25,157 nt of DNA from a virus. Position numbers and translations under genes: made by a program. Position 1 is the first letter of the stretch. Each line of letters begins with the position of its first letter. The notes under the pieces are model-generated. The model saw nothing but the letters and a program-made list of their open reading frames with translations. It was not told the DNA's origin and did no database searches. Where the stretch lies: the IMG/VR virus record IMGVR_UViG_3300010392_000768, positions 1 to 25,157 of that record; one strand, given 5' to 3'. Positions 1-12,295 of this stretch are shown one piece after another.

Positions 1-132
1 ACCTTGAAGGCGCTGGAATCTCACGAGCCTGCCGCAAAGCGGTACGGTCACGCGACGAAGGCCGAGCGGTTACAGATGGCCAGACGGATCGGTGAATTGA
101 TTAAAACCATGCCGGAGTCGAAATATGGCTAA
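1..132 (+). CDS. C-terminal end of an unidentified protein (partial)
   Basis: Frame 1 is open from the first base to a TAA at 130-132 and encodes the last 43 residues of a protein that starts outside the window. The fragment is charged and probably helical (AERLQMARRIGELIKTMP). I do not recognise a family. Its stop overlaps the ATG of the next gene at 125 by 8 bases, which implies one operon and translational coupling. The overlap and the lack of interrupting stops make coding likely, but the fragment is too short for a functional call. Confidence 0.6.
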   Translation, partial: TLKALESHEPAAKRYGHATKAERLQMARRIGELIKTMPESKYG

Positions 133-607
133 ACGCAAGCGCAAATACCGCGAACGGCAGGATTTCAACAACGGCATACAGCCGACGCCGGAACGGGCGA
201 AACATAACGGCGGAATTGTCATGGAAGTGCGAGACAGCAACGAGGAAGATTCCGTGCGAATTGTTGGCCCACGCGCTCGATATGAAAGTTTGATTGACCG
301 ATGGCTGGACGAGGGAAAGCTAGGACGGCATCAGCAGGCCGGCAAGCGCCACGATATGGCCATATGGCTGCGGGAACTGCACGCGAACACCCATCCGAGC
401 GAGGTCCAGGACTTCACCGGCGCCGGTGGCGGAAACGGGGAAATGTCCGATGCCCAAGCATGGAACTTTGAGTGCTACAAAGATTCCATGATGGACATGG
501 GTCAAGACGCCTGCGCCGTCGTGGCGGTGGTCTGCGAGGACCAGGAGCGGAAGGTGGAGCCTGTCTTGCGCGGTTTGGATCGGTTAATTGAACGAAGGGG
601 AATTTGA
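125..607 (+). CDS. Phage protein of unknown function, possible late-gene regulator
   Basis: This encodes 160 aa. The N terminus is strongly basic (KRKRKYRERQ), which would suit nucleic-acid binding. The middle and C-terminal parts have a pattern I associate with DUF6456-like phage proteins that sit just ahead of terminase genes: a helical segment with GKRHDMAIWLRELH near residues 73-86, then a cysteine/valine segment (ACAVVAVVCED) and a final helix ending in LRGLDRLIERRGI. The link to that family is from memory and tentative. The gene lies between an upstream reading frame and the promoter-hairpin-terminator region at 854-983, the place where lambdoid phages keep antiterminator Q. A role in switching on the late operon is therefore plausible but only inferred from position. 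ATG 125 overlaps the upstream stop; no strong Shine-Dalgarno is present, which fits coupling. Confidence 0.75.
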   Translation: MAKRKRKYRERQDFNNGIQPTPERAKHNGGIVMEVRDSNEEDSVRIVGPRARYESLIDRWLDEGKLGRHQQAGKRHDMAIWLRELHANTHPSEVQDFTGAGGGNGEMSDAQAWNFECYKDSMMDMGQDACAVVAVVCEDQERKVEPVLRGLDRLIERRGI

Positions 608-834
608 TGGAAACGCCAAAAGATTTGGCCGAGGAATTATTGGACGCGATGATTTACACCGTCGCTCGGGAGTTTGTTAAGGATACAGGCGGTCAAACCA
701 TTGAAGATGCGGCGGAAGGGATGAAAATGCTCCTTGTCTGCGGCTTGCTCCGCTTTACTAATCTCACCTTCGGAGTTGAGGTTAAACAAGACGACGGGGA
801 ATGGGTGGGTACTGGGCCATCCAGAATGCACTAG
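607..834 (+). CDS. Small hypothetical phage protein
   Basis: This encodes 75 aa. ATG 607 shares its A with the TGA stop of the preceding gene (605-607); a TTG directly upstream is in frame but less likely. The protein is acidic and helical in its first half (PKDLAEELLDAMIYTVAREFV). A short hydrophobic stretch follows (MLLVCGLLRF, about residues 42-51), and the tail has alternating charged residues. It is too short for a confident membrane call. I recognise no family. It is the last gene before the non-coding control region at 835-1120. Confidence 0.6.
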   Translation: METPKDLAEELLDAMIYTVAREFVKDTGGQTIEDAAEGMKMLLVCGLLRFTNLTFGVEVKQDDGEWVGTGPSRMH

Positions 835-853
835 GCCGCCGCACAAAATGTAG

Positions 854-883
854 TTGACACGCTTTTGCGGGATACGATACCTT
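854..883 (+). promoter_or_regulatory. Candidate late-operon promoter
   Basis: A perfect -35 hexamer, TTGACA, is at 854-859. Weak -10 candidates follow at 876-881 (GATACC, 16-base spacer) and 878-883 (TACCTT, 18-base spacer). The -35 is consensus and lies in a gap without genes. The poor -10 suggests that the promoter is weak or needs help. Predicted transcripts would begin near 888-890 and run into the hairpin at 901-926 and the terminator at 953-983, then the late genes. The promoter is predicted by eye only. Confidence 0.55.
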
Positions 884-887
884 GTGC

Positions 888-984
888 ATGTCCTCGGACG
901 GCCCCTTACCCGGAAACGGGTGGGGCTTAAGGCTGTAGGTGTGTCTGAAAGCAACCGCTCCCGAATAGGTCGAGCGGTTTTTTG
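888..984 (+). ncRNA. Predicted short structured leader RNA upstream of the late operon
   Basis: The stretch from the predicted start near 888 to the terminator contains a strong hairpin. GCCCC (901-905) pairs with GGGGC (922-926), and CCCG (909-912) pairs with CGGG (917-920) across a GAAA tetraloop (913-916), leaving a small TTA/T internal loop. An outer helix of TCGGAC (894-899) with GTCTGA (943-948), including one G-U pair, could enclose it. The RNA would end at the terminator, giving roughly 95 nt. The layout resembles the short PR'-tR' transcript of lambda or the RNA antitermination (put) sites of HK022, but I see no sequence match to either. It could equally be an independent small RNA. 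Confidence 0.45.
953..983 (+). terminator. Intrinsic terminator
   Basis: AACCGCTC (953-960) and GAGCGGTT (972-979) form a perfect 8-bp stem around an 11-base loop. The run of six T at 978-983 follows directly, the last two stem bases being part of it. This is a standard Rho-independent terminator on the + strand. It stops transcripts from the early genes and from the promoter at 854, so the late operon would need either readthrough or its own promoter. Confidence 0.8.
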
Positions 985-1086
985 TTACCCGGAACGCCCG
1001 AAGCGGCAACCTTTACACAGCTTATTGCACACAAAGGCCGATCTGGGCTTCCGGGTGCGTTAACGAATCCAACCTTTTCATAACTA

Positions 1087-1115
1087 TTGAATAAACGCGG
1101 CATTCGCGGTACATT
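1087..1115 (+). promoter_or_regulatory. Possible second promoter giving an almost leaderless mRNA
   Basis: TTGAAT (1087-1092) and TACATT (1110-1115) are separated by exactly 17 bases and match the sigma-70 hexamers at 5 of 6 and 4 of 6 positions. The predicted transcript start would fall on or next to the ATG at 1121, which lacks a Shine-Dalgarno, so translation would be leaderless. This is a weak prediction. The rest of the stretch from 984 to 1086 shows nothing I can name. Confidence 0.3.
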
Positions 1116-1120
1116 TCAGC

Positions 1121-1522
1121 ATGAACCGACGATCATTCATAGTTGGATTTGCCGCATTGTGGGCGTTCCCCGCGCAAGCCAGTGATATCGAGGCGGTCTT
1201 TCGCCGCGCTTATATGTTGATGGATTACGAGAAGGACGCCAAATCCAACAGCGCGGACCTTGTAAGGCAGGGTAAGCGGTTCAAGGCTGATTGCCTCGGC
1301 TTCGCCCTGACGTGCCAGACGTTGCTTTCCGATCGGGAAAGCTGGATACACTATTGCGCCACGCTTGGCGGCAGACCCCACGCGGTTCTGGAATGCGGCG
1401 GGTATATCCTCGACATCCGTTATCCGGGGCTGCGGACTGTTGAACAGGCAAAAAAGGGAAGCGGGTACACATTCCATGAGTTCCTACCGGCTAACGCCAA
1501 AGCAGCGGGCTTAAATGGGTAG
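1121..1522 (+). CDS. Exported transglutaminase-like cysteine peptidase
   Basis: This encodes 133 aa. The N terminus is an export signal with a twin-arginine motif (NRRSFI at residues 2-7), a hydrophobic core and a likely cleavage site after AQA at residue 20. The mature part has a plausible Cys-His-Asp triad: Cys58 in ADCLGFA, His87 in RPHAVLEC and Asp98 in YILDIRYP. This order and spacing match the bacterial transglutaminase-like cysteine peptidases (BTLCP/LapG superfamily), although the domain is short. An NlpC/P60-type peptidase is the main alternative, since DCxGF is also seen there. The likely site of action is the periplasm, on a peptide or protein substrate I cannot name; a role in lysis or envelope modification is possible. 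It is the first gene after the control region and its end overlaps the next gene by 8 bases. Confidence 0.7.
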   Translation: MNRRSFIVGFAALWAFPAQASDIEAVFRRAYMLMDYEKDAKSNSADLVRQGKRFKADCLGFALTCQTLLSDRESWIHYCATLGGRPHAVLECGGYILDIRYPGLRTVEQAKKGSGYTFHEFLPANAKAAGLNG

Positions 1523-2138
1523 GAAGGCTTGCCCACGTTGCCAGCAAATGCGGTTTGGCTGCGCTGTATGTAGCAAGGCGTTGGGGATTTCAGGGCCGGG
1601 TTATTATGTCTATGAGCTTATAGATCCGAGAACGAATGGCGCGTTTTACGTGGGCAAGGGGCGAGGCAATCGCGCGCTTCACCATCTTGGCGGCGTGAGC
1701 AAAAACAACAAAAACAAAACCGCCTTGGTCGAGGAAATTAGAGAGTCCGGGTTAGAGCCAGAGATTAGGGTAGTTAGGGAATTCGATGACGAGCAGGCCG
1801 CGTATGATTTTGAGCGGGAACACATAGAAGAAATAGGGCTTGAAAATTTAACAAATGTAAGGCCGGGCGGCGGTACAGGTCGCTTCGAGGCCGAGCTTAA
1901 ACACTTCGTTAATTCTTTGCTCGCTCACGAGTGGAAACCGATATCCGAATACCCGAAAGACAAGCGGCATTGGCCGGTAATGGTGGTTAACGGAATCAAA
2001 GAGACCGCCAACCTTTTTGTTGAAAAATGGGGCGATAAAGCCGTCCCGCTACAGAGGCACGTTCATGGGCGCGTTCAGGCTTACCTCAAAGCAGACGAAG
2101 TTTGCGGAACTGGTGATCGCGGGCGTCAAGCAGGTTGA
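1515..2138 (+). CDS. GIY-YIG endonuclease with N-terminal zinc knuckle and C-terminal DUF551-like domain
   Basis: This encodes 207 aa in three parts. Residues 6-19 have Cys6, Cys9, Cys16 and Cys19 (CxxC, six residues, CxxC), a probable zinc knuckle. Residues 30-118 are a GIY-YIG nuclease of the LEM-3-like type: YYVYELIDP, FYVGKGRGNR with Arg53 as probable catalytic arginine, and a closing acidic helix followed by LTNVRPGGG. Residues 138-190, opening with WKPISEYPKD, resemble the DUF551-type domain of many phage proteins. It may be a free-standing homing endonuclease or a nuclease that assists packaging; its position directly before terminase fits both. The start ATG 1515 overlaps the upstream stop, and the last 74 bases overlap the terminase small subunit gene. 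Confidence 0.8.
   Translation: MGRKACPRCQQMRFGCAVCSKALGISGPGYYVYELIDPRTNGAFYVGKGRGNRALHHLGGVSKNNKNKTALVEEIRESGLEPEIRVVREFDDEQAAYDFEREHIEEIGLENLTNVRPGGGTGRFEAELKHFVNSLLAHEWKPISEYPKDKRHWPVMVVNGIKETANLFVEKWGDKAVPLQRHVHGRVQAYLKADEVCGTGDRGRQAG
2053..2057 (+). promoter_or_regulatory. Shine-Dalgarno deciding the small terminase start
   Basis: AGAGG lies 7 bases ahead of ATG 2065. In-frame TTG codons at 2017 and 2020 have no such site, so this favours ATG 2065, inside the end of the upstream nuclease gene. Confidence 0.6.
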
Positions 2139-2535
2139 GGCTTATAAGGCTGTCTATAAGAGCGACAAAATGAGTCCGAACGCTTTGGCGGTTGAGGCAT
2201 CCCGTTTAATGCGGCATCCGCAGGTATCCCTAAAGATCGCCGAAGGGAGAGAGAAAGAAATTATTGAGCCGACGGCAACGTACACTCAATTCACGCATCA
2301 AAAGGCGGTTGAGCTGGCGCTACATGCGGCGAAGCGTGCGGATGAATTAGGCCAGTCCGGCGCCTATGTGTCGGCGGTTCGGTTGGCGAGCGATCTGCAA
2401 GGTTACATCACGGAAAAGAAATCCGTTGAGGTCACTACCAACCCCTGGTCGGAAATCGCCGAGCTGACGGGCGCCGGCAAGCGCCACCTGGAGGAAGATG
2501 AGCAGCATTCGGGCGGTAGCGGGTCAGTTCACTGA
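2065..2535 (+). CDS. terS: Terminase small subunit
   Basis: This encodes 156 aa from ATG 2065. The N-terminal half is the typical helix-turn-helix region of Terminase_2 (PF03592) proteins: LTSKQTKFAELVIAG, then VEAYKAVYKSDKMSP, then ASRLMRHPQV and an arginine/glutamate helix. In this family the subunit recognises the packaging site and assembles into a ring that hands DNA to the large subunit. The rest is helical and probably makes the oligomer. The acidic C-terminal end (HLEEDEQHSG) may contact the large subunit. The gene overlaps the nuclease gene upstream by 74 bases and the large subunit gene downstream by 38 bases. Confidence 0.85.
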   Translation: MGAFRLTSKQTKFAELVIAGVKQVEAYKAVYKSDKMSPNALAVEASRLMRHPQVSLKIAEGREKEIIEPTATYTQFTHQKAVELALHAAKRADELGQSGAYVSAVRLASDLQGYITEKKSVEVTTNPWSEIAELTGAGKRHLEEDEQHSGGSGSVH

Positions 2536-3973
2536 CAAGCGTTGGCGGTTAAGCAACCTTTACCACGTCACGGACAAGACGGGGGCCAAGGTTCGATTCC
2601 GCATGAATTGGGCTCAAGAGGCCCTGTTCGACAATATGCACTTTCTGAATACGATATTGAAAGCCCGCCAGCTTGGGTTTTCGACATTCATTCAGCTTTA
2701 CATACTCGACGATTGTTTGTTCCACGCGAATATACGGGGCGGCGTTATTGCTCACACTCGGGAAGACGCGCAGGCGATATTCAAGGACAAGGTTCGGTTC
2801 CCCTACGACTGCCTTCCGGAAGGGCTGAAGGCGGCGGTCCCGGCAACTCAGGACAGCGCGCAGGCGTTGAGCTTCGCGAACAATTCCAGCGTTCGGGTCG
2901 GCACGAGTTTGCGATCCGGCACGTTCCAATGCCTTCACATATCGGAGTTCGGCAAGATTGCGGCGCTGTATCCCGACAAGGCGCGGGAAATCAGGACAGG
3001 CGCGCTGAATACGGTCCAGGCTGGTCAAAAGGTGTGGATTGAATCCACGGCGGAGGGGCAGGCTGGTGATTTTCATGATTTGTGCGTGACGGGCATGGAG
3101 GCGCAGCGGCGCAAGACCAAGCTCACGGCGCTTGATTTTAAGTTCCATTTCTTTCCGTGGTGGAAGGAACAGGAATACACGCTGGCCCCGGAAGGCGTCG
3201 AGATACCGTCGGACATGGCGGAATACTTCGCCAAGCTGTTGACGATTGGAATAGACCTCACGCCGGAACAAAAGGCCTGGTACGTCAAGAAAGCGGAACA
3301 GCAGCGCCAGGATATGAAGCGCGAATTCCCCTCGACGCCGGAGGAAGCTTTTGAGGCGTCGATTGAGGGCGCTTATTACGGCGATCAGATTGCGGCGCTG
3401 GAGGAAGCGGGAAAGATATGCGCGGTTCCTCACGATCCGGCTGTCCCGGTGGAGACGTGGTGGGATTTGGGCATCGGCGATGCAATGGCGGTATGGTTCA
3501 TCCAGCGTGTGGGCCGCGAGATTCACGTTATCGACTATTACGAAAACTCGGGTGAGGGCATTCCGCACTACGCGAAGATGCTGGCGGCGAAGCCCTACAC
3601 CTATTCGGAACATATTTTGCCGCACGATGCCGAGGCGCGGGAATTGGGTTCCGGCAAAACGCGCGTGGAGACGTTCAAGGGGCTGGTCGGAAAGGCCCCG
3701 CACGTTGTCCCTAGGCAGAGCGTGGAAGACGGCATCGAGGCGTCGAGGAACATCCTGAGTCTGTGTTGGTTCGACGCGGAGAAGTGTTCCGAGGGCCTGA
3801 AGGCGCTGAAGAACTACCGCAAGGAATGGGATGACAAGCTCGCGACGTGGAAAGATAAGCCGCGTCATGATTGGGCATCGCATGGTTCTGATGCGTTTAG
3901 AACGGGCGCGATGTACAGGCCGTCGAATCCCCGACCGAAGGGGCCGAAAAGCCCGAAACTCAATATTCGATAG
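2498..3973 (+). CDS. terL: Terminase large subunit (packaging ATPase and nuclease)
   Basis: This encodes 491 aa, a usual length. The N-terminal ATPase has an adenine-site region near residues 36-45 (MNWAQEALFD), a deviant Walker A KARQLGFST at 55-63, a Walker B-like CLHISEFGK at 145-153 with Glu150, and a coupling motif IESTAEG at 181-187. The C-terminal RNase H-like nuclease has candidate metal-binding acids Asp323 (WWDLG), Asp377 (LPHDAEA) and Asp465 (HGSDAFR). It would pump DNA into the prohead through the portal and cut the concatemer. ATG 2498 has GGAGGA only 2 bases upstream, an unusually tight Shine-Dalgarno, so coupling with the overlapping small subunit gene probably helps. The conserved LSNLYHVTDKTGAKVRFRM segment supports this start rather than a later one. 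Confidence 0.95.
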   Translation: MSSIRAVAGQFTDKRWRLSNLYHVTDKTGAKVRFRMNWAQEALFDNMHFLNTILKARQLGFSTFIQLYILDDCLFHANIRGGVIAHTREDAQAIFKDKVRFPYDCLPEGLKAAVPATQDSAQALSFANNSSVRVGTSLRSGTFQCLHISEFGKIAALYPDKAREIRTGALNTVQAGQKVWIESTAEGQAGDFHDLCVTGMEAQRRKTKLTALDFKFHFFPWWKEQEYTLAPEGVEIPSDMAEYFAKLLTIGIDLTPEQKAWYVKKAEQQRQDMKREFPSTPEEAFEASIEGAYYGDQIAALEEAGKICAVPHDPAVPVETWWDLGIGDAMAVWFIQRVGREIHVIDYYENSGEGIPHYAKMLAAKPYTYSEHILPHDAEARELGSGKTRVETFKGLVGKAPHVVPRQSVEDGIEASRNILSLCWFDAEKCSEGLKALKNYRKEWDDKLATWKDKPRHDWASHGSDAFRTGAMYRPSNPRPKGPKSPKLNIR

Positions 3974-10659: not shown

Positions 10660-11169
10660 ATGCGAATTATTGCAACTCTTTTCGCGCTCGTGTTCATGGC
10701 GTCTTCCGCGTGGGCCGGTGCGAATCTCCAGCAAAGCGACGACGGGCGGAATGCGCAATGGGTCAATCAAGACGGGGTTTCTTTCCCCGTTGGCGATCCT
10801 GGCCTTGCGGTGTCGATTACAGACATGTCAACGGCGGGGACGACCTACGTTATCTCTCACAAGCCGGGCCTTTTGTCGAAAGCCTACACGGTTCTTCACA
10901 ATGCGCTTTCGGCGGGGTCGAACTCTCCATCCCTGACGTTTTTTCTTGCTTCGGCGGCGTCGGCCAATGATGGGCAGTTTACGCAAGTATCCGATCTGTC
11001 GGGGGCGGCGTTGACCCTTGGGGCCACGAGTGCAGGCGGGAACGGGTCGCTTACCTGGGACGACGCAAACAGCACGCGCGTTGTCGGCCAGGGCGATGTG
11101 ATTGCCATCGTAACGGATGGCGGGTCGACAGGCACCGCGCTTGGTACGATTACGCTTGTCATCGAGTAG
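10660..11169 (+). CDS. Secreted beta-rich protein (capsid-adjacent)
   Basis: This encodes 169 aa with AGGAG 7 bases before the ATG. Residues 1-19 are a clear signal peptide (MRIIATLFALVFMASSAWA) with an AWA cleavage site. The mature part is Gly-, Ser- and Thr-rich and likely all-beta. The C-terminal pattern, ending VVGQGDVIAIVTDGGSTGTA, recalls beta-sandwich phage structural proteins. A signal peptide on such a protein is unusual, since virions form in the cytoplasm. It may instead work in the periplasm or outer surface together with the membrane proteins encoded next. I do not recognise a named family. Confidence 0.7.
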   Translation: MRIIATLFALVFMASSAWAGANLQQSDDGRNAQWVNQDGVSFPVGDPGLAVSITDMSTAGTTYVISHKPGLLSKAYTVLHNALSAGSNSPSLTFFLASAASANDGQFTQVSDLSGAALTLGATSAGGNGSLTWDDANSTRVVGQGDVIAIVTDGGSTGTALGTITLVIE

Positions 11170-12295
11170 GGATGCGGGCGCGGCGGTTCTTGTCGCCGCG
11201 TCCCTTCTCGCCTTTGGCATATGGAGCCCGGAGCCTTTCCGCTGGTCCGCGATATTCCTTTTAGCGTTCTGCGGTTCGTTTTGTTTTTGGAAATACAGAC
11301 CTAAAGTAATATGGCCCTTGATGGCCCTGTTTCTTTGGGCCTGCGTTTCTTTGGTTTGGTCGCCGGATATAAGAACCGGCGTTTTGTATTTGATGCAATG
11401 CGCGGCGGTAATGGTTGTCGCGGCTTTGCCGTGGCGCCGGTCTTTTGTCCTGAATGTGGTTTCGGCGGCGGCGGTGGGGGCGTTCGTTCTAAATTACGTG
11501 CGGCCTTATGCGGGCGGGTTTGGGAATCCGAACTTTCAGGCTGAATTTATTTGCCTCGCCTTGCCGTTTTGCATCGCGAACATCAGGCATAGCTCCCCCT
11601 TGGCTCTTATGGGGGTGGTGGCGTGTTTAGGCGTTCTGGCGCAGTCTGACAGCTCGACACATTGGGGCGCGCTGGCGGGCTTTCTGGTGTTGTTTATGGC
11701 CTATCGCCGCATGTGGTGGACCTTGGCTTATTTCGTGGCGATTGGGGCGAATATCGCGGCGTTTTGGGCGGACGACCTTTGGGCTTGGTCCTCGGTCCAT
11801 GAGCGCGTGGAGCTTTGGTGGAATACCATTGTGATGTGGCTCGATTCCCCGATGGGATACGGGGTCGGGTCGTTCAATTACGAATATTATAGGTTTCAGG
11901 AGGCGCACCCTTGGCAGGACACGCTGTTAAAGGCGCCGACCGTCTTTGCGGGGGCCGCTCACAACGAGTTTTTGCAAGTTTTGGCAACGCTTGGCCCCTT
12001 GGGGGTTATTCTGGCGTGCGCGTCGATCTTGTCGCTTCCCCGCGACGGATTGAGCCTTTCCGTGGCGGGCGTGGCGATATCTCTGGCGGGGTTCGGGTTT
12101 CCGTTCCAATCCGCCGCGCCGCTGATGTTAATGGCTTTGTGTTTTGCGATATCTGAGCCTGCCGATTATCGCATTTTGCGGCGTTTTGCTGTTTTTCGGC
12201 GCGCATTGGGCGCTGGCCGGGGTCCAGTTAAGCAATGCGCGGGTAGCGATCAAGTCCGACCCGTTGGCAGCGTTCCAGTACCTATCGACAGCTAA
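11117..12295 (+). CDS. O-antigen polymerase/ligase-like membrane protein (Wzy/WaaL type)
   Basis: This encodes 392 aa with about ten hydrophobic segments. The Wzy_C hallmarks are present: GFGNPNFQAEFICLALPF at 134-151, then ERVELWW (229-235, Arg230), SPMGYGVGSF (244-253) and AHNEFLQVLATLGPLG (281-296, His282). In this family a large periplasmic loop with conserved Arg and His joins polysaccharide from a lipid carrier to an acceptor. A phage copy could change host O-antigen or other glycans. The start is uncertain: ATG 11117 overlaps the upstream gene by 53 bases and lacks a good Shine-Dalgarno, and TTG 11141 or 11156 are alternatives. The last roughly 35 residues look non-native and overlap the TPR frame, so the true end may be a frameshift (see findings). 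Confidence 0.85.
   Translation: MAGRQAPRLVRLRLSSSRDAGAAVLVAASLLAFGIWSPEPFRWSAIFLLAFCGSFCFWKYRPKVIWPLMALFLWACVSLVWSPDIRTGVLYLMQCAAVMVVAALPWRRSFVLNVVSAAAVGAFVLNYVRPYAGGFGNPNFQAEFICLALPFCIANIRHSSPLALMGVVACLGVLAQSDSSTHWGALAGFLVLFMAYRRMWWTLAYFVAIGANIAAFWADDLWAWSSVHERVELWWNTIVMWLDSPMGYGVGSFNYEYYRFQEAHPWQDTLLKAPTVFAGAAHNEFLQVLATLGPLGVILACASILSLPRDGLSLSVAGVAISLAGFGFPFQSAAPLMLMALCFAISEPADYRILRRFAVFRRALGAGRGPVKQCAGSDQVRPVGSVPVPIDS

Follow-up and report, generated by a model that had tools for sequence, protein, structure and literature searches.

A candidate GafZ-like late-gene switch and a recurrent stem-loop in a phage leader

In phage lambda, a regulator gene, a promoter (PR'), a short leader, a terminator (tR') and the late genes follow one another. 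The regulator Q binds between the -35 and -10 elements of its promoter, as does GafZ. GafZ of Caulobacter is an antiterminator that acts from a promoter (PMC11150451), and DUF6456 is the label reported for relatives of GafA of Rhodobacter (PMC9638019). GafY/GafZ and GafA are activators of gene transfer agents, and they include a DnaA-like partner: GafY in the gafYZ pair, the N-terminus in GafA. GafZ and GafA work at a promoter before the packaging genes, with a terminator downstream (PMC11150451 and PMC9638019); this terminator consists of three 150-bp repeats. The put RNA of phage HK022 folds early in the transcript, before a terminator, and consists of two stems that contact polymerase (PMC9378689).

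Gene order and conservation of the late leader

The window, our term for the whole stretch of DNA analysed, covers 25,157 bases and is the virus record of a phage whose portal and capsid protein are of SU10 type. In it a regulator gene is followed by a promoter, a short structured leader, a terminator and the late genes (Table 1), which is the order of lambda. The arrangement of promoter, downstream terminator and packaging genes is also that of GafZ and GafA, although the terminator here is a simple hairpin. A sequence-only reading had named these elements, and they are present where it placed them. The gene lies in the place of lambda Q with the virion genes after it, and in the TTGACA 0 of 6 columns vary. 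The hairpin pairs GCCCC (901-905) with GGGGC (922-926) and ACCCG with CGGGU (908-912/917-921), and the terminator pairs AACCGCTC (953-960) with GAGCGGTT (972-979) and has its T run at 978-983. The hairpin carries a UU bulge at 906-907 and its GAAA cap at 913-916. That reading saw no sequence match to the lambda or HK022 systems, and the family searches below gave none to Q.

Table 1. Features of the leader region and the gene before it
Feature	Start	End	Strand	Basis
Q-position gene, 160 aa; candidate GafZ-like (DUF6456-related) antiterminator	125	607	+	Profile similarity
Conserved CAAAATGYAG-type stretch	843	853	+	Just 5' of the -35; 2/11 columns vary
Promoter (predicted)	854	883	+	-35 TTGACA 854-859; -10 candidate TACCTT 878-883; 18-nt spacer
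GAAA-capped hairpin, P2 of the stem-loop family	901	926	+	Folds; 0/26 columns vary
12-nt conserved family tail TTAAGGCTGTAG	927	938	+	Tail columns, 39 copies
Intrinsic terminator (predicted)	953	983	+	8-bp stem and six T; fold; 2/31 columns vary
Second structured block, long stem	984	1061	+	2/78 columns vary; fold

We judge the odds to be roughly even (about 0.5) that these elements form an antitermination switch for the late genes, of the lambda PR'/tR' type but with a GafZ-like (DUF6456-related) protein in place of Q. We infer that transcription would start at the promoter and terminate at 953-983, giving a short leader RNA. As the 125-607 protein accumulates, it would load onto RNA polymerase at or just after the promoter, and the loaded polymerase would read through the terminator into the terminase and virion genes. 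Hairpin 901-926 would be a general phage leader element placed inside the switch leader; as a guess, it might slow polymerase or protect the RNA.

A simple consensus scan, run with a terminator loop limit of 8, listed neither the promoter nor the terminator, and in positions 1-3000 it found no excess of promoter-like sites (2 vs 1.8 expected) or terminator-like sites (3 vs 3.9 expected). Consensus by itself therefore proves nothing, and the evidence beyond chance is conservation. The -10 candidate matches the consensus at 3 of 6 positions and reads TATCTT in two relatives (L003 and L004). Terminator 953-983 is the sole one that our own scan detected in the 2.6 kb 5' of terL. The RNA 888-990 has a folding energy of -41.3 kcal/mol (z -2.3), a value reached by 1 of 200 shuffles; for 886-1065 z is -3.7, and 0 of 200 shuffles reach its energy. 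A tRNA search found none, and the DNA of the region gave chance-level matches only against named phages and plasmids.

Four viral contigs (L002, L003, L004 and L005) encode near-identical counterparts of the 125-607 protein. L002 is identical to the window over the region, while 837-1061 is about 89-94% identical in L003/L005 and L004. L003 lacks the window's ORF 604-834, and the terminase families of L003 and L004 differ from the window's. Thus 125-607 is inherited together with the leader block in L003, L004 and L005 through exchanges of ORF 604-834 and of the terminases, and this cohesion favours the switch reading.

Column counts from a four-row alignment, in which the rows stand for about three lineages because L003 and L005 are alike there, are very uneven along the region. 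Only 1 of 16 columns varies at 875-890, against 9 of 15 in the promoter spacer (860-874) and 52 of 59 at 1062-1120. At third codon positions of 125-604, 37 of 160 differ from the window in L003 and 35 of 160 in L004. On this alignment, the -35, the hairpin, the terminator and the next 78 bases are nearly fixed while spacer and flanks are free, a footprint of function that favours a switch. The same counts also weaken it, since the spacer, where GafZ and Q bind, is the least conserved part; the palindrome CGC-TTTT-GCG in the window's spacer, where a GafZ-type binding site would lie, is not kept in L003 or L004. The block 984-1061 had no match by exact scan outside the window's clade. It repeats a 10-mer of the hairpin, TTACCCGGAA.

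The regulator gene and its relatives

At profile level, the 125-607 protein looks like a distant relative of the DUF6456/GafA-GafZ proteins. A profile of 15 homologues (A8) matched a profile of ten DUF6456 proteins (A9, drawn from 10 of 58 genomes) with an E of 8.4e-6 over 113 columns, compared with 0.44 for the control. The likeness is remote, and GafYZ and GafA serve gene transfer agents whereas the window is a phage. The Pfam DUF6456 model does not match 125-607, and the window sequence alone reaches an E of 0.34 against the DUF6456 profile, both of which weaken the switch reading. Searches of Pfam and PHROG gave no match at 0.001, tblastn in phages and plasmids gave an E of 7 or worse, and none of the solved structures matched. 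No fold match to lambda Q was found either. The structure model of 125-607 is middling and a fold search with it found no neighbours in the PDB, which weakens the reading further; against a viral structure library it matched phage proteins, four below an E of 0.001, and one model named DUF6456 at 3e-3.

The neighbourhood recalls gafYZ. A Bac_DnaA_C-like gene (PF08299) lies upstream in L003 (E 1.8e-6; 28.3 bits vs a cut-off of 31.5), and a DnaA_C gene lies directly 5' of a chromosomal homologue of 125-607 (L200; E 2e-21). The window itself starts downstream of the place where L003 has this gene. Together with the profile match and the antitermination described for GafZ, the genes in L003 and L200 favour the switch reading. 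At E 0.01, 5 of 385 alphaproteobacterial genomes have a homologue of 125-607 (the weakest is doubtful), and within one family (L207-L218) the count is 12 of 23 genomes. These family homologues and the DnaA_C-preceded one in L200 are possibly a domesticated phage regulator pair.

One divergent prophage (L199/L206) has the same order. Its 125-607 homologue, 34-39% identical, is followed by a TTGACA, a folded leader (z -2.7), an 8-bp terminator and the terL and portal genes. We noted no sequence likeness between its leader and the window's, and the stem-loop element is absent from it; a shared order around an unrelated leader favours a switch. Two further loci (L082 and L084), chosen after looking, have the same order by inspection, with Q-position genes and sequence unrelated to the window's. 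In L012 the layout is weak, the preceding ORF having only 52 codons. The layout is absent from L227 and L228 and from the viewed 125-607 homologues other than L206. Terminators before terL occur in 6 of 27 SU10-like loci, with 4 in each of two controls, and so are not in excess. These homologues without the layout, and the lack of an excess, weaken the switch reading.

If the switch is real, GafZ-type antitermination, known from gene transfer agents, would also run the late genes of a phage, and a single regulatory family distinct from those of Q would link domesticated and free phages.

A stem-loop family in phage leaders

The hairpin is not confined to this locus. An exact scan with the 27 bases 900-926 matched an unrelated phage (L086), and the match runs on into the tail, TTRAGGCNGTAG. 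Scanning with the 3' half only gave 72 contigs, or 40 once near-identical ones were collapsed. Over these 40, the unbiased test of the stem is the count of the 5' partner GCCCC within 45 bases: it was found upstream in 19 and downstream in 3. Copies inside long frames made up 19 of the 21 without the partner vs 9 of the 19 with it. Some of the 72 contigs hold more copies, with the alternative complementary stems GCCGG/CCGGC, ACCCG/CGGGT, GTCCG/CGGAC and CCCCG/CGGGG. The sequence-only reading had looked to compensating changes in relatives as a check of the hairpin. Within the window's clade there are none, because the hairpin does not vary there; in the wider family the stems covary.

The 39 copies behind the tail columns include near-identical ones and were picked for a 5-bp stem, which biases counts of stem types among them. 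In the window's clade 3 of the 12 tail columns are variable, all three in L004. An outer helix (P1) that pairs the tail with upstream bases has modest support: it scores 163 where 146 is expected (sd 7.2), and 65 of 5000 permutations reach that score. The window's clade does not form P1. In several Azospirillum and related copies another helix (P3) can be drawn by eye just 3' of the tail; P1 and P3 were both partly drawn in this way.

By scan, the window's own sub-type is present in 14 contigs. Copies of the family sit mostly between co-directional genes, near the next start. The pattern of 3' half plus partner is rare in cellular genomes, with 14 stretches in the genome collection, many in coding-looking sequence and about 7 expected by chance on a hand estimate. 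A search model (R1) with five pairs was built from eight copies of equal loop length because MAFFT failed to align the variable loops. It hit 4 of 385 alphaproteobacterial genomes, one of which (G340) is doubtful, and had 0 hits in 48 SU10-like loci. Rfam 15 at its gathering score gave 0 matches in the window; an E-value search of 600-1140 gave 3 sub-threshold matches, none of them on the hairpin, and at six carrier loci Rfam gave none at the motif. In one Azospirillum-type prophage (L119, 1237-1845) a non-coding leader of 600 bases contains three motif-like copies at intervals of about 190 bases.

Is the hairpin tied to the regulator? No homologue of 125-607 was found in the 24 carrier records outside the window's clade, many of which are fragments. 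The 125-607 profile matched just two of 26 carrier records, both from the window's clade, and DUF6456 matched 0 of these 26, again with many fragments among them. The hairpin is therefore not bound to this regulator, and it is not evidently the site that the switch would recognise, being common to unrelated phages with no detectable 125-607 homologue. We accordingly split the idea of one integrated RNA switch in two: a candidate late switch driven by a protein, and a leader element of general occurrence in phages. For the first, the order, the conservation, the second prophage and the regulator family lend partial support to the sequence-only suggestion of a possible new antitermination switch; the supposed put-likeness of the hairpin found no support. 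The second stands on firmer ground as a new observation. Its stem-loop family has covarying stems and no match in Rfam 15, recurs across unrelated phages in leaders and between cistrons, and offers a concrete, testable RNA element. Neither this family nor a phage GafZ switch was found in the literature searched, which mostly lay outside subscription journals.

The tail contains GGCNGTAG, which recalls the RfaH ops site GGCGGTAGCGTG (PMC5995543). Unlike ops, the tail varies, with a G at position 9 in 30 of 39 copies, and in many copies it partly pairs with upstream bases. The full ops site includes TG at positions 11-12; the window reads GGCTGTAGGTGT instead, and the bases after GTAG vary across the family. 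The ops/RfaH reading was dropped because the tail is variable and partly paired and NusG-family genes are present in 1 of 24 carrier records. One Azospirillum-type prophage record with the stem-loop does encode a NusG-family protein (L180, 1501-1770). REP/RAYT elements have GTAG at the foot of their hairpin. They were set aside because GTAG lies on the opposite side here.

Other readings of the leader

The stem-loop could instead serve the translation, processing or stability of phage mRNAs and be unrelated to any switch, a reading we hold to be quite possible though short of probable. Many copies lie directly 3' of a stop codon, and in 30 of 32 viewed copies a mechanical frame of 45 codons or more begins at most 150 nt downstream, a count made without a control. 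The ESAS of cluster K mycobacteriophages are similarly placed inverted repeats that recur 5' of phage gene starts (PMC3203893), but they differ from the window's stem-loop in sequence and hosts. The window itself fits poorly, its first assigned gene 3' of the hairpin beginning only at 1121, past the terminator.

Alternatively, the promoter and terminator could bracket an independent gene for a small RNA, about 95 nt long, that also insulates early from late genes, the late genes using another promoter. The folded RNA between the two signals, the strongly conserved block 3' of the terminator and a frame on the other strand that may follow the terminator in L199 are in keeping with this. Yet outside the clade the RNA does not recur as a whole but only as its short hairpin, the L199 RNA is not similar in sequence, and by eye no conserved late promoter is recognised 3' of 983. 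We think such a gene rather unlikely.

Placement of promoter, element and terminator in a row makes the window the plainest setting for a bolder idea: that the family is a new cis-acting RNA, shared by unrelated phages of Alphaproteobacteria and perhaps by others, that modifies transcription elongation through host machinery only. We regard this as improbable. The reading in which the stem-loop is a put-like RNA that alters host RNA polymerase in cis, gives readthrough with no phage protein and leaves 125-607 incidental seems about as improbable. Like put, the window's element is a folded RNA between promoter and terminator; its recurrence in unrelated phages makes a host partner likely, and in an Azospirillum prophage copies lie near the start of an early operon. 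But the window's stem-loop has another sequence, most copies of the family, unlike put, lie within operons, between genes and near a start codon, with no terminator noted, and L199 has the layout with no such element. Likeness to HK022 is not beyond chance either, R1 giving a best score of 10 bits (E 0.34) there, although R1 models the stem-loop motif and not put.

Attenuation by a leader peptide (frame 888-938, MSSDGPLPGNGWGLRL) is very improbable: L003 and L004 retain the frame with its TAG, and L086 has almost identical codons, but by eye all three L004 changes in the frame are non-synonymous and no start codon lies in frame between the previous stop and these codons in L086, and the TAG is part of a motif also found in copies with no such frame.

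Between the candidate switch and the terminase genes, the window carries a GIY-YIG nuclease gene (1515-2138). Among the late genes, 11117-12295 encodes many hydrophobic segments and is presumably O-antigen ligase-like.
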